The position numbers and the translations under genes were made by a program. From positions 1-54,410 of the forward strand of contig CANBXZ010000006.1 of NCBI GenBank assembly GCA_947373495.1: 54,410 nucleotides of DNA, given 5' to 3'. Shown here piece by piece: positions 8,139-52,119 of this stretch. The notes beneath the pieces are model-generated. The model had not been told where the DNA came from. It was given only the letters and a program-made list of their open reading frames with translations, and did not search any database. Each line of letters begins with the position of its first letter. Position 1 is the stretch's first letter. The DNA comes from Acetobacteraceae bacterium (GTDB lineage: Bacteria > Pseudomonadota > Alphaproteobacteria > Acetobacterales > Acetobacteraceae).

Positions 8139-8240
8139 CTGGAGCGTGCTCGGCACTGACTGAAGCGCCGAGCACGCTCCAGGTTATTGCTTCATCGCGT
8201 GATTCACGCCGTTCGGTGACTCCACCTCCGGCGATCACGC
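8139..8240 (+). repeat. Two-hairpin extragenic repeat, copy 1
   Basis: Hairpin A: arms CTGGAGCGTGCTCGGC (8139-8154) and its perfect reverse complement (8167-8182) around the loop ACTGACTGAAGC. After a 14-nt linker comes hairpin B (8197-8240, 44 nt), whose ends GCGTGAT and ATCACGC pair. A second copy with the same loop, linker length and element order lies inverted at 31819-31913, and hairpin B alone is at 42434-42477. It starts 14 bases after the dehydrogenase stop and abuts the stop of the convergent Arg-rich gene. There is no T-run, so it is not a standard terminator. Confidence 0.85.
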
Positions 8241-8241
8241 T

Positions 8242-8505
8242 CTAGTACCGGCGGCCCGGGGGGCGATGGCGCGCTTCCCATTCGCGGCGCAATTCCTCGC
8301 GGCGGCGGCGTTCCCACAGGGCGCGTTCGCGGCGTTCCTGCCAGCGTTCCTGGCGCTGCGCCTCGGCGCGGCGGCGCCATTCCAGTTCCCGGTGCTGCTC
8401 GTACTCCCGCTGCCGGTCGCGCGGGTTGCCCCAATAGGGCTGGGCCGTGGCGGGCAGCGCCGGCAGGGTGGCAAGGGCAAGCACGAGGAAGCGGCGGGGC
8501 AGCAT
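8242..8505 (-). CDS. Small secreted Arg/Glu-rich protein
   Basis: An 87-residue product with a good ribosome site (AGGAG upstream of the ATG at 8505). Residues 1-21 form a cleavable signal peptide (basic M-L-P-R-R, hydrophobic core, A-T-A cleavage motif). The predicted mature part of about 66 residues is strikingly charged: 22 Arg plus many Glu, in a heptad-like R/E/W pattern suggesting a long charged helix. No family recognised beyond short Arg-rich periplasmic proteins of Acetobacteraceae. The wide open frame on both strands here is due to GC content; the signal peptide and ribosome site favour this frame. Confidence 0.6.
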   Translation of the reverse strand: MLPRRFLVLALATLPALPATAQPYWGNPRDRQREYEQHRELEWRRRAEAQRQERWQERRERALWERRRREELRREWEARHRPPGRRY

Positions 8506-28844: not shown

Positions 28845-29501
28845 ATGGATGGTAATATGGAAGGCCTCACCGGCCAGGTGCCGCATGGCACGTCGGACGA
28901 GGACGGGCATGGCGCGCCGATCTCGCGCATCGTGGCGGAAGTGGCCGCGCGCTTCCCGGGTGAACGCATCAGCCTCGGCGAAATGGCCGAAGCCTTTGGC
29001 GACCGCGCCTTTGGCCTGCTGATCCTGCTGCTGCTGCTGCCCTCGCTGCTGCCGGGCATGGCCTCGGTGTTCGGCACCCCGGTGCTGATCCTGGGGGTGC
29101 AGATGGGCCTGGGCCGGCGCACGCCGAAGCTGCCCGGCTTCATCGCCAAGCAAAGCATCAAGCGCGCCGACCTGCTGCGGCTTTCCGGCGCTTCTTCCAA
29201 GTGGCTGAAGCGGGTGGAGCAATACGTCAAGCCGCGCCCGGGCTGGTTCACCACCCCGGCGGGGGACAAGCTGTTCGGCTGGCTCACCGCCTATGTGGCG
29301 CTGATGCTCATTCTGCCCGGCCCCGGCACCAACGGCCCGCCCGCCTTCGGCAACCTGGTGATGGCGCTGGGCCTGGTGGAAAACGACAACCGCACCCTGG
29401 CCTGGGGCGTCGGCCTTACCGTGGCGGGCTGCGCCTTCGCCACCGCGGTGCTGGTGGTGCTGGGCTGGCTGGGCTTTGCCGCCCTGGGCATGCTGTTCTG
29501 A
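28845..29501 (+). CDS. ExoD-family membrane protein
   Basis: About 218 residues; candidate starts are GTG 28836, ATG 28845 and ATG 28857, of which I prefer 28845. The G-D-R-A-F-G-L-L-I-L-L-L-L-L-P-S-L-L-P-G motif and the later hydrophobic pair near the C terminus are the ExoD (PF06055) pattern. ExoD in rhizobia affects exopolysaccharide production and alkali tolerance; the mechanism is unknown. No exopolysaccharide genes are adjacent. It lies just upstream of the cobalamin riboswitch. Confidence 0.82.
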   Translation: MDGNMEGLTGQVPHGTSDEDGHGAPISRIVAEVAARFPGERISLGEMAEAFGDRAFGLLILLLLLPSLLPGMASVFGTPVLILGVQMGLGRRTPKLPGFIAKQSIKRADLLRLSGASSKWLKRVEQYVKPRPGWFTTPAGDKLFGWLTAYVALMLILPGPGTNGPPAFGNLVMALGLVENDNRTLAWGVGLTVAGCAFATAVLVVLGWLGFAALGMLF

Positions 29502-29514
29502 ACCTGCTAGGCCA

Positions 29515-29685
29515 CCGGCATGCGCCGGTGTCGGGAACGCGTGACGTGGGGCAACCCACCAATCCGCGGCTGCCCCCGCAACTGTAGGCGGTGAGCCTGG
29601 CCCCAGCATGCCATTGTGCGCCCCGGCGCATGAGAAGGCGGGGCCAGGCGTTGACCCGCGAGCCAGGAGACCGGCCGGCGCAGAG
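29515..29685 (+). promoter_or_regulatory. Cobalamin (B12) riboswitch
   Basis: Sequence after the ExoD stop carries the conserved landmarks: CGGGAA followed by GTG, the core G-C-C-C-C-C-G-C-A-A-C-T-G-T near 29570-29585, a long variable arm, and the closing A-G-C-C-A-G-G-A-G-A-C-C at 29661-29672 (B12-box and P3-P6 core). It lies 156 bases ahead of btuB on the same strand. Known effect: adenosylcobalamin binding lowers expression of the receptor. Edges are approximate. Confidence 0.92.
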
Positions 29686-29784
29686 TTGTCTCGCGCGCAT
29701 TGGGCGGGGTGCACCAATGTATCGGACCTTGGGGCCGGGGTAATTCCCTCGGCGCTTCCGCATGCGGGAACGACGCAAGCTGTT

Positions 29785-29840: not shown

Positions 29841-31811
29841 ATGCGCACCACCCGACTTGCGACGCTTGCCTTGCTGGCGGCGTTGCCCTGCCATGTCCAC
29901 GGCCAAACCACCGCCTTGCCGGACACCATCGTCACCGCCACCCGCCTGCCGACCCCGGCCGAGCGGGTGCCCGCGGCCATCACCGTCATCACCCGCCAGC
30001 AGATCGAGGAGAGCGGCTACCAGTCGCTGGCCGAGGCGCTGGCCGTGGTGCCGGGCATGCGCCTGGCCGCCAGTGGCGGGCTGGGCCAGCAGGCCAGCGG
30101 CTTCCTGCGCGGCGCCAACAGCAGCCACACGCTGGTGCTGCTGGACGGCGTGCCGATCAACGACGCCTCCGGCCCCGCCAACGCCTTCGACTTCGGCCAG
30201 GATCTGCTGGGCACGGTGGAACGCATCGAGGTGGTGCGCGGCCCGGCTTCCTCGCTCTACGGCTCGGCGGCGCTGGGCGGGGTGGTCAACATCGTCACCC
30301 GCCGCGCCCCGGCGGACCGTGGCTTCGCGCCCTTCGGCGACCTGGCGGGCGGCACCCAGCGCACCCTGCGCGGCGGCCTGGGCGCCACCGGCACGGTGGG
30401 CGCGTTCGACTACCTGGTGGGGGGGCAATCCATCTCCACCCAGGGCTTCAACAGCATCGCCCGTCGCCTGCAGACCAGCACCGGCGAACGCGATGGCTTC
30501 CGCGGCCAGGCCGCCACCGCCCGGCTGGGCTACACCCCGCAGGACGGCACCCGGGTGGAGGCGCTGCTGCGCTGGCGGCAGAACCGCCTGGGGCTGGATG
30601 GCTACAACGACTTCTACCAACTGGCCGATGACCCGAATTACCACGGCCAGGACCAGCGCTGGACCGGCCAGCTGCGGGCCGAAACCCGGTTGCTGAACGG
30701 CGCCTGGACCACCGGACTGCGCGGCTTCAACAGCGAGGACCGGCGCCGCTACCTGAACCTGCCGGACGCGCTTTCCGTCACCACCGCCAACGACCTGTAT
30801 CGCGGCCGCCGGGCCGGGGTGGAATGGTCGAACACGCTGCGGCTGCCCAGCGTCGGGCCGCTGAGCGAAGGCGCCCTGGCCTTCGGCGTGCTGCACGGGC
30901 TGGAGGAAACCAACAGCCGCAGCGGCAACGAGGCCTACACCACCACCACCCGCGCCCAGCAGCACAGCACCGGCGGCCATGCCAGCCTGCAATATCGCTT
31001 GGGGGACCGGCTGGACCTGACCGGTGGCCTGCGGCACGACAGCACCACCGGCTTCACCGAGGCCACCACCTGGCGGGCCGGCGCGGTGCTGGCGGTGCCG
31101 GAGGTGGCCAGCCGGGTTCGGCTGGCCGCCGGCAGCGCCTTCCGCGCCCCGGCGCTGTACGAAAGGTTCGGCACCGCGCCGGGCTATATCGGCAATGCCA
31201 ACCTGCGGCCGGAACGCAGCCAGGGCTGGGAGATCGGCACCGAAACCGACCTCAGCCTGGGCGGCCGGCCGCGGCTGGCGACGCTGGGCTGGACCTTCTT
31301 CCAGTCCTCGGTGCGCAGCCTCATCAACTACACCGCGGTCAATGCCTTCACCTTCACCCAGTCCAATGTGGACCGGGCGAAGATCCAGGGGGCGGAACTG
31401 GGCGCCACGCTGCGGCCGTTCAGCTGGGCGGAAGCCACGCTGGCCTGGACCGTGACCGAGGCGTTCGACGCCACCACCCGGCAGCGGCTGGCCCGCCGGC
31501 CGGAACATGTGCTGAGCCTGACCGGCCGGGTGCAGCCGCTGGAACGCCTGGTGCTGGCGCCCACGGTGCTGCTGACCGGCCGCAGCCCGGAAGGCGCCTT
31601 CGCCAGCTATGCCAATAGCGGCGACGCCCGCGACACCCCGCGCAGCAACCGCGCCGGCGCGGTGCTGCACCTGACCGCGACCTACCAGGTGATGCCGCAG
31701 GTGGCGGTGTTCCTGGAAGGCCGCAACCTGACCAACAGCCGGTGGGAACCCATCAACGGCTACGCCACGCCCGGGCGCAGCCTGTTGTTCGGCACCCGCT
31801 TCGCGCTGTAG
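29841..31811 (+). CDS. btuB: TonB-dependent cobalamin receptor BtuB
   Basis: A 656-residue outer membrane receptor starting at an ATG with a GGGGAG ribosome site; signal peptide of about 21 residues (C-H-V-H-G-Q end). The TonB box region is L-P-D-T-I-V-T-A-T-R-L-P-T-P. The plug follows with V-P-G-M-R-L and V-L-L-D-G-V-P-I-N-D, then V-E-R-I-E-V-V-R-G-P-A-S-S-L-Y-G-S-A-A-L-G-G-V-V-N-I-V-T-R. The barrel ends in F-G-T-R-F-A-L. The cobalamin riboswitch upstream fixes the likely ligand as B12 or cobinamide. No BtuCDF transporter genes follow in this window. Confidence 0.92.
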   Translation: MRTTRLATLALLAALPCHVHGQTTALPDTIVTATRLPTPAERVPAAITVITRQQIEESGYQSLAEALAVVPGMRLAASGGLGQQASGFLRGANSSHTLVLLDGVPINDASGPANAFDFGQDLLGTVERIEVVRGPASSLYGSAALGGVVNIVTRRAPADRGFAPFGDLAGGTQRTLRGGLGATGTVGAFDYLVGGQSISTQGFNSIARRLQTSTGERDGFRGQAATARLGYTPQDGTRVEALLRWRQNRLGLDGYNDFYQLADDPNYHGQDQRWTGQLRAETRLLNGAWTTGLRGFNSEDRRRYLNLPDALSVTTANDLYRGRRAGVEWSNTLRLPSVGPLSEGALAFGVLHGLEETNSRSGNEAYTTTTRAQQHSTGGHASLQYRLGDRLDLTGGLRHDSTTGFTEATTWRAGAVLAVPEVASRVRLAAGSAFRAPALYERFGTAPGYIGNANLRPERSQGWEIGTETDLSLGGRPRLATLGWTFFQSSVRSLINYTAVNAFTFTQSNVDRAKIQGAELGATLRPFSWAEATLAWTVTEAFDATTRQRLARRPEHVLSLTGRVQPLERLVLAPTVLLTGRSPEGAFASYANSGDARDTPRSNRAGAVLHLTATYQVMPQVAVFLEGRNLTNSRWEPINGYATPGRSLLFGTRFAL

Positions 31812-31818
31812 GCGGGCT

Positions 31819-31913
31819 GGCCTGAGGCAGGCTCACCGAACAGCGTGAACCACGCCAAAAATCAATGAGCCGGAGCCTGGTCGGCGCTTCAGTCAGTGCC
31901 GATCAGGCTCCGG
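31819..31913 (-). repeat. Two-hairpin extragenic repeat, copy 2 (inverted)
   Basis: Read on the minus strand: hairpin A with arms at 31898-31913 and 31870-31885 around the loop ACTGACTGAAGC, identical to copy 1, then a 14-nt linker and hairpin B-like sequence containing GCGTGGTTCACGC and TTCGGTGA. The element begins 8 bases after the btuB stop. Compared with copy 1 the stem differs by two compensatory pair changes and one change that leaves a G-U pair on the + strand. Confidence 0.85.
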
Positions 31914-42433: not shown

Positions 42434-42477
42434 GCGTGATTAACGCCTTGCGGTAAGCGCACCTCAGGCGATCACGC
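42434..42477 (+). repeat. Extragenic repeat, solo hairpin B (copy 3)
   Basis: A 44-nt element with the same ends (GCGTGATT...GGCGATCACGC) and exact length as hairpin B of copy 1 (8197-8240); 36 of 44 bases agree. It starts 10 bases after the CitE-like stop. Hairpin A is absent. Confidence 0.75.
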
Positions 42478-42502
42478 TCCGGGCCGCAGCAGCCTGGCGG
42501 CG

Positions 42503-51907: not shown

Positions 51908-52119
51908 GGGGCCTTCATTACACCTGCCCGCAAGCCGGGGCGATGACAACGCAGCGCATGGAGCGTGACCACCTGGAACGGCATCGTCACCAGGCGTGAA
52001 GCACGTGGAAGATCAGCAACCTGCAACCTGGGCGCCACCCCTGGCGGTGGCTGCCCCATTCCAGGCCAATGGCGTGGCGGTTTTAGGGCCTTCGCCAGCG
52101 GGGGCAAGTGAAGCCGCCG

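Follow-up and report, generated by a model that had tools for sequence, protein, structure and literature searches.

An abundant two-hairpin intergenic repeat of Acetobacteraceae, most likely an IS630-type MITE with CIR-like anatomy

The window, meaning the whole stretch of 54,410 nucleotides analysed here, carries four copies of a repeat that codes for no gene (Table 1). The first has as neighbours the gene of an Ldh_2 dehydrogenase and an 87-aa frame that matched no Pfam family, the second meets the end of a TonB-dependent receptor gene, and the third is accompanied by HpcH/HpaI aldolase and Asp/Glu racemase genes. An Rfam scan of the window at gathering score assigned the repeat to no family and returned a sole match, an ordinary cobalamin riboswitch (RF00174, 87.7 bits) at 29493-29693 on the forward strand, 5' of the receptor gene.

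Table 1. Copies of the repeat in the window, their parts, and the stop codons located at their termini
Feature	Position	Strand	Remarks
Copy 1, full element, 107 nt	8139..8245	+	Model match 123.6 bits, E 3e-27
Copy 1 termini	8139..8245	+	Inverted repeats GAGCGTG.../...CACGCTC; right TA intact, left TA decayed to TG
Copy 1 hairpin A, 44 nt	8139..8182	+	Consensus stem 19 bp, loop GACTGA (6 nt); A-C mismatch close to the loop
Copy 1 linker, 14 nt	8183..8196	+	
Copy 1 hairpin B, 44 nt	8197..8240	+	Two GANTC sites: GATTC 8201-8205, GACTC 8218-8222
TAG stop codon of convergent 87-aa gene	8242..8244	-	Gene 8242-8505; stop made by right terminal CTA of copy 1
Copy 2, full element	31807..31913	-	Model match 91 bits
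Copy 2 hairpin A	31870..31913	-	
Copy 2 linker	31856..31869	-	
Copy 2 hairpin B	31812..31855	-	Degraded
TAG stop codon of TonB-dependent receptor gene	31809..31811	+	Gene 29841-31811; within right terminus of copy 2; one base off model register
Copy 3, right terminus and hairpin B only	42434..42482	+	50.2 bits; hairpin B proper 42434-42477
Copy 4, degenerate full-length copy	51958..52064	-	Covariance model 47.1 bits, E 2.1e-9

Folded as RNA, copy 1 reaches a minimum free energy of -62.7 kcal/mol (z -7.7), and none of 200 shuffles is equally stable. The perfect 16-bp stem around ACTGACTGAAGC, the 14-nt linker and the 44-nt hairpin B that a first-pass annotation had described for this copy are all present in the sequence, as is the solitary hairpin B of copy 3. 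For copy 2, said to be a full second copy of the same design, order and linker length are indeed the same; its hairpin A, however, is weaker and imperfect and its hairpin B is degraded. The annotation overlooked copy 4 and the TA-flanked terminal inverted repeats, which match an IS630-type insertion sequence, and its interpretation is supported in part.

The prediction of a modular, extragenic two-hairpin repeat spread over the genome with its stem pairing preserved is borne out. With at most one mismatch, ACTGACTGAAGC occurs 36 times in this genome, against 7 times for the reversed control. At E<=0.1 a covariance model, R1, gave at least 148 matches, of which three appear to mirror another match on the opposite strand; the figure is a lower bound, 150 of 6068 candidates having been scored. 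Per-genome counts in G000, G002, G005 and G030 are at or close to the maximum scored, about 97. Over 40 genomes at E<=0.01, R1 matched 18, all of them among the 24 same-family genomes and three with a single weak match, and it matched none of the 16 genomes of other families. The core pattern of hairpin B was found in at least 117 stretches of named genome contigs, whose titles, among the matches listed, point to Acetobacteraceae, Rhodospirillales, Acidisphaera, 'Asaia' and unplaced Alphaproteobacteria or Proteobacteria, mostly metagenome-assembled genomes. Tried as a class-wide feature, the same pattern appeared in two of 190 genomes, one of them the present genome; in exactly this form, then, the sequence family does not extend across the class. 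Plasmid and phage records searched at E 0.01 yielded no match, and no description of this repeat in Acetobacteraceae was found among the open-licence papers searched.

Alignments were built from 50 matches of this genome, some reflections and half copies among them, and then from 34 full copies (A1). The A1 consensus reads CTAGAGCGTGATCGGCGCT GACTGA AGCGCCGATCACGCTC(T/C)(A/G)G, followed by the linker and by GCGTGATTCACGCCTTTCGGTGA....CACCTCAGGCGATCACGCTCTAG. It turns what had been taken for a 12-nt loop into a longer structure, since the consensus GCTGACTGAAGC forms a 19-bp stem with a 6-nt loop, GACTGA, in which the A of the window copies is a mismatch. In A1, 89.2% of the paired cells are complementary (shuffles 86.2 +- 0.4) and 48 cells show two-sided changes (shuffles 21.4 +- 5.8), the structure having been drawn from the same sequences and relatedness being uncontrolled. 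Under the same lack of control for relatedness, such changes touch 9 of the 19 pairs of hairpin A and 3 of the 16 pairs of hairpin B. In hairpin B, GTGATTCA and CGGYGATTCCRCC are kept in most copies among those listed, while in hairpin A sequence and loop shift between genomes and pairing persists. An arm-matched, hypervariable 'barcode' in hairpin A of G030 was considered and dropped, as most copies listed there have one arm sequence and several have a common mismatch.

The loop had been called invariant, which it is not: the exact GACTGA is present in 35 of the 68 copies analysed in this genome, many others being near variants, GATAGG predominates in G030 (25/34) and GACAGA in G005 (14/24). 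Moreover, the loop is inverted in 3 of the 68 copies, exactly in one and nearly so in two. A loop that varies between genomes and can be inverted makes a protein or RNA reading a fixed loop unlikely, and the loop-binding factor once proposed is not supported. An apparently inverted hairpin A in G005 (L212) was not counted, being one hairpin common to two overlapping model matches on opposite strands.

The same annotation had mentioned a REP-type transposase. Extragenic position, hairpins and high copy number are indeed what the element has in common with REP/BIME repeats, and a RAYT (Y1 transposase) reading the loop or the hairpin foot could in principle have moved it. However, the RAYT profile PF01797 found nothing in nine same-family genomes (this one, five congeners and three others), while the Escherichia coli and Caulobacter controls matched; in addition, the element is longer than a REP, its loop is not conserved between genomes, and it ends in terminal inverted repeats with TA flanks. 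A survey lists the CGTC class of REPs as missing from Acetobacteraceae (PMC3733652). We find a REP/RAYT origin hardly credible, and the earlier statement that the repeat fits no classical REP and no simple terminator with a T-run holds.

The termini are best seen in G030, whose 34 copies are much alike and follow the scheme Y-TA-GAGC...GCTC-TA-R. There, TA is present at 31 left and 31 right ends, the outer base is a pyrimidine at every left end (C 28, T 6) and a purine at every right end (A 19, G 15), whereas the base in the corresponding inner position, where hairpin A has its foot, is G in all 34, so that the outer bases look host-derived. The outer bases are nearly as regular in G005 (Y 24/24, R 22/24) and in this genome (Y 66/68, R 61/68). 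TA is retained at 16 left and 18 right ends of the 24 copies in G005 and at 12 left and 36 right ends of the 68 here; with so few left TA intact in this genome, the duplication of TA is read from the relatives. Left and right ends agree as inverted repeats at 12 of 16 positions here, and at 11 of 16 in both G030 and G005. Neighbouring copies with one common CTAG occur at four G030 loci (L205, L229, L237 and L240), which is what insertion into the terminus of an existing copy should produce. At L237, two linker-plus-hairpin-B units precede a full copy, joined at CTAG, and hairpin B units can thus repeat in tandem.

Most relatives lack the element at the three window sites compared. The copy-1 junction has no model match in G003, G004 and G005 and a weak hairpin-B-like one in G002 (18.7 bits), and the locus was not found in G001. 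Other palindromes lie at this site, a tandem of CGGTCGTCC type in G004 (L402) besides the weak match in G002 (L403), and the site therefore seems repeat-prone. At the copy-2 site, the stretch fetched 3' of the receptor gene gave no model match in any of G001 to G005, and that gene keeps its TAG stop in G001, where the spacer measures 22 nt, and in G002, where 348 nt of other sequence are present. The copy-3 site is empty in G001, G003 and G004, where the spacers measure only 7-18 nt, and bears model matches of 43.6 and 44.8 bits in G002 and G005; it is occupied in three of six genomes, which could reflect separate insertions or one old insertion since diverged or lost elsewhere. What occupies the G002 and G005 loci (L442 and L443) is a tandem of hairpins with another sequence (CGCGATTCAGACCT...AGGTCATCGCGG), flanked by the same convergent genes. 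None of the window loci yielded an exact pre-insertion sequence bearing only one TA.

The position behind genes is governed by a precise register. With gene ends called by a purpose-made codon-model gene finder, the 68 copies of this genome face 98 gene 3' ends (46 of 67 on the left, 52 of 65 on the right), 34 of which stop exactly at the terminal TAG register (27 TAG, 6 TGA, 1 TAA); the next commonest offset accounts for 6 of the 98, and 12 further gene ends read into the element in the terminal-TAG frame. The exact register recurs in the relatives, at 15 of 50 gene ends in G030 and 10 of 33 in G005. The earlier remark that copies begin 8-14 bases after a stop codon overlooked the register: the opposite end of copy 1 supplies, with its terminal TAG, the stop of the convergent gene, and one terminus of copy 2 contains a TAG stop, the model boundary being one base off. 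The six gene ends at the next commonest offset, +21, belong to genes that enter hairpin A in the terminal-TAG frame and stop 21 nt in, around the loop.

Much of this placement is predicted by the distribution of YTAR. Outside the copy, the YTAR of 65 loci of this genome number 38 between genes, 17 within stop codons and 6 over 156 kb of gene sequence (other copies unmasked), which puts 55 of 61 in intergenic DNA or stop codons; the window, copies included, has 13 intergenic, 3 in stop codons and 1 in a gene. In a GC-rich genome whose YTAR are mostly intergenic or lie in TAG/TAA stops, copies would come to sit just behind genes. The relation is looser in G030, with 75 intergenic YTAR, 13 in stop codons and 59 in genes (88 of 147 outside genes), and since so many lie within genes, the target by itself does not account for intergenic placement there; insertions that break genes must also have been purged, or a second target preference must have been at work. 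We conclude that the position behind genes follows largely from the insertion target. A strong enrichment 'just after the stop codon' can stem largely from target choice, which calls for caution before such repeats are called regulators or terminators.

This bears on another explanation, that the repeat is an RNA 3'-end element, a terminator or exonuclease barrier, selected behind genes. Its hairpins are stable, a T-rich linker follows hairpin A, nearly half of the hairpin A pairs show two-sided changes, and most copies do face gene 3' ends. Yet genes show no preference for reading into hairpin A and its linker; stops in exact register are commoner at the other end, by 26 to 8 in this genome and by 12 to 3 in G030. 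In small groups, hairpin A pairing is the same across settings: 0.868 where genes converge (n=31), 0.874 where they diverge (n=5) and 0.875 in mixed cases (n=8). Added to what the YTAR distribution here already predicts, these results make an RNA 3'-end element very unlikely.

Candidate partners of the repeat were sought among transposase loci of the relatives. Of 60 such loci, 49 were scanned for TA-flanked 16-base ends and eight gave pairs; with ends over 24 bases instead, one IS emerged in the 60 loci. The best match to the element is a 1044-bp IS in G030 (L465), bounded as TTA-GAGCGTGATGACGTTT...(rc) GAGTCTGATGACATTA-TAA, whose ORF is an IS630 family transposase (NF033545, E 7.7e-47). The G030 element ends in GAGCGGGATGACGTCT and GAGCGTGATGACCGAA; the left end of the IS agrees with its left end at 14 of 16 bases and with its right end at 12 of 16, the first 12 being identical. 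At three further G030 loci (L475, L485 and L488), IS630 frames are flanked by TA-GAGCGGGATG, whose sequence after the TA equals the ten bases that open the element's left end in that genome. At L485, this end lies near a C-terminal transposase fragment only, possibly an internally deleted IS. The other seven IS reach 7 to 12 of 16 at best with one or other element set, and the G002 IS (L463) agrees at 7 and 9 of 16 with the G005 ends and at 10-12 with those of G030. IS630 is said to prefer CTAG, a finding attributed to Tenzen and Ohtsubo in 1991. For IS630 elements in general, the relevant part of one account has them insert at TA and duplicate it (PMC2170065).

We consider with good confidence that the repeat is a non-autonomous transposable element (MITE) of IS630 type. 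In favour of this origin, the unit is present in many copies, bears terminal repeats and TA flanks, keeps a register with stop codons, is missing at many orthologous sites and shares terminal-repeat sequence with an IS630-family IS; transposition would then have occurred in trans, and the copies of this genome would be fossils. An IS630-family transposase acting in trans would have recognised the ends GAGCGTGATC... and inserted the element at YTAR, mostly CTAG, duplicating TA, whereupon the element's own G behind the duplicated TA would recreate a TAG stop. Once inserted, the hairpins would stay as 3'-flanking structures and as carriers of CcrM-type GANTC sites, and any effect on RNA 3' ends would be secondary.

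Several observations weigh against the IS630-type MITE. This genome, the assembly of which is 85% complete, yielded no autonomous IS630 and no PF13340 transposase; the identity of IS and MITE termini is weaker in the congeners G002 and G005; the left TA has mostly decayed here and the window loci offered no exact empty site; the copy-3 site is filled in half of the genomes compared; and hairpin A pairing is kept better than shuffles predict. PF13358 matches number 0 here, 3 in G002, 8 in G005 and 20 in G030, and the element ends are decayed in this genome, where no transposase was found, and mostly intact in G030; over four genomes, a link of end decay to transposase absence is a hint only.

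Transposases of IS5/IS427 type (IS711-like) likewise insert at YTAR and duplicate TA, and might have mobilised the same MITE instead. Matches to PF13340, absent from this genome, number 9 in G002, 7 in G005 and 16 in G030, and there are IS with TA-flanked ends such as TTA-GAGGGCGTTGACATTC, which agrees with the left end of the G030 element at 11 of 16 bases. For IS711, both TA duplication at YTAR and an association with Bru-RS repeats have been described (PMC2266754). The IS630 end nevertheless fits better, with 14 of 16 bases on one side and its first 12 identical on the other, and a mover of IS5/IS427 type appears quite improbable beside an IS630-type one.

Repeats of comparable design are known from other bacteria, and all comparisons here are by description. 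RUP of Streptococcus pneumoniae, as portrayed in the section of a 2007 review devoted to it, is a MITE of IS630-Spn1 of 107 bp with about a hundred intergenic copies and a TA target (PMC2229807). The element has in common with RUP the 107-nt size, the many intergenic copies, the TA target and a terminal repeat shared with an IS630-family IS; unlike RUP, it consists of two separate hairpins with a linker and shows a stop-codon register. The palindromic repeats Bru-RS1 and Bru-RS2 of Brucella measure 103 and 106 bp according to the passage describing them (PMC10800456), and elsewhere, again in a limited passage, they are associated with IS using YTAR (PMC2266754). They resemble the element in size, palindromic nature and YTAR, although the hosts differ.

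A close anatomical counterpart is CIR of Caulobacter and Brucella, which the pertinent section of the 2007 review describes as an intergenic repeat of about 110 bp with two inverted-repeat arms and a linker, TA ends, and a GANTC that one of the arms bears in its terminal loop or at it (PMC2229807). Two inverted repeats with a linker, about 110 bp, an intergenic position and TA ends are equally found in the element. In that section CIR is listed without terminal inverted repeats and with its mobility left open, while the element has an IS630-type end, and GANTC is absent from a third of the copies of this genome.

The window contains 29 GANTC sites, two of them within copy 1, where 104 are expected, a 3.6-fold depletion that fits a CcrM host. 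The copies are dense in them, with on average 0.85 per copy against 0.04 per 107 nt of flank in this genome, 1.68 against 0.18 in G030 and 2.92 against 0.17 in G005. At site 2 of the element, compared with the apical GANTC of CIR, GANTC is present in 26 of 34 copies of G030 (25 GATTC, 1 GAGTC), in 15 of 24 of G005 and in at least 15 of 68 here. All five congeners, G001-G005, strongly match the N6_N4_Mtase methylase family; the G002 enzyme aligns with CcrM over 350 residues (PDB 6pbd, E 2.7e-144) and is closest to the CcrM equivalog, with a score below its cut-off (596.5 vs 830 bits). The depletion in the window, the density in the copies, the methylase matches of the congeners and the shared anatomy speak for a maintained regulatory DNA element of CIR type, in which CcrM-methylated GANTC in intergenic hairpins would be kept for a role and mobility would be incidental. 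Such a role is nonetheless improbable, given that GANTC is missing from 22 of the 68 copies here, that site 2 reads GAGCG in 16 of them, that the methylase family went unmatched in this 85% complete assembly, and that several orthologous sites have no copy.

On balance, the element is most likely an IS630-type MITE with CIR-like anatomy. An abundant repeat of the Acetobacteraceae thereby gains an origin, and IS630-type ends with a YTAR target offer a mobility route for alphaproteobacterial two-hairpin intergenic repeats, whose mechanism of movement the 2007 review, in its treatment of such repeats, left open (PMC2229807).

What the IS630-type MITE leaves unexplained, and what we regard as the part most worth pursuing, is that the arms of hairpin A change in concert, the supposedly host-derived outer TA included. 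In 27 of 62 copies of this genome, the outer dinucleotide on the left, which the insertion model takes to have begun as TA, forms Watson-Crick pairs with its inner counterpart at the hairpin A foot, against a mean of 13.0 and a maximum of 25 in 10,000 shuffles; with G-U allowed, the count of 37 is not extreme (shuffle mean 31.2, maximum 41). Left and right end dinucleotides of this genome show no such complementarity (8, mean 13.5). The arms may have changed through stepwise compensation or arm-templated DNA repair, or whole CTGG...CCAG units may have moved another way, a route that would make it less certain that the host supplied the outer TA in every copy. Tentatively, and knowing it to be somewhat unlikely, we suggest that a DNA-level process, rather than selection on RNA, actively maintains the complementarity of the inserted hairpin A palindrome, even in pairs that join the element to the host's TA duplication. 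Template switching or cruciform repair would copy one arm onto the other, sometimes inverting the loop, and the repeats would then serve as a natural record of how palindromes template mutation in a bacterial genome. Copies with TG/CA and with CA/TG do not form separate subfamilies: the identity of linker plus hairpin B is 0.733 and 0.783 within these small groups and 0.749 between them. In G005 the dinucleotides are complementary in 19 of 25 copies (mean 12.1; 14 of 10,000 shuffles reach 19), 13 of the 19 being unchanged TA/TA, and among the copies with a changed left end 6 of 8 are complementary.
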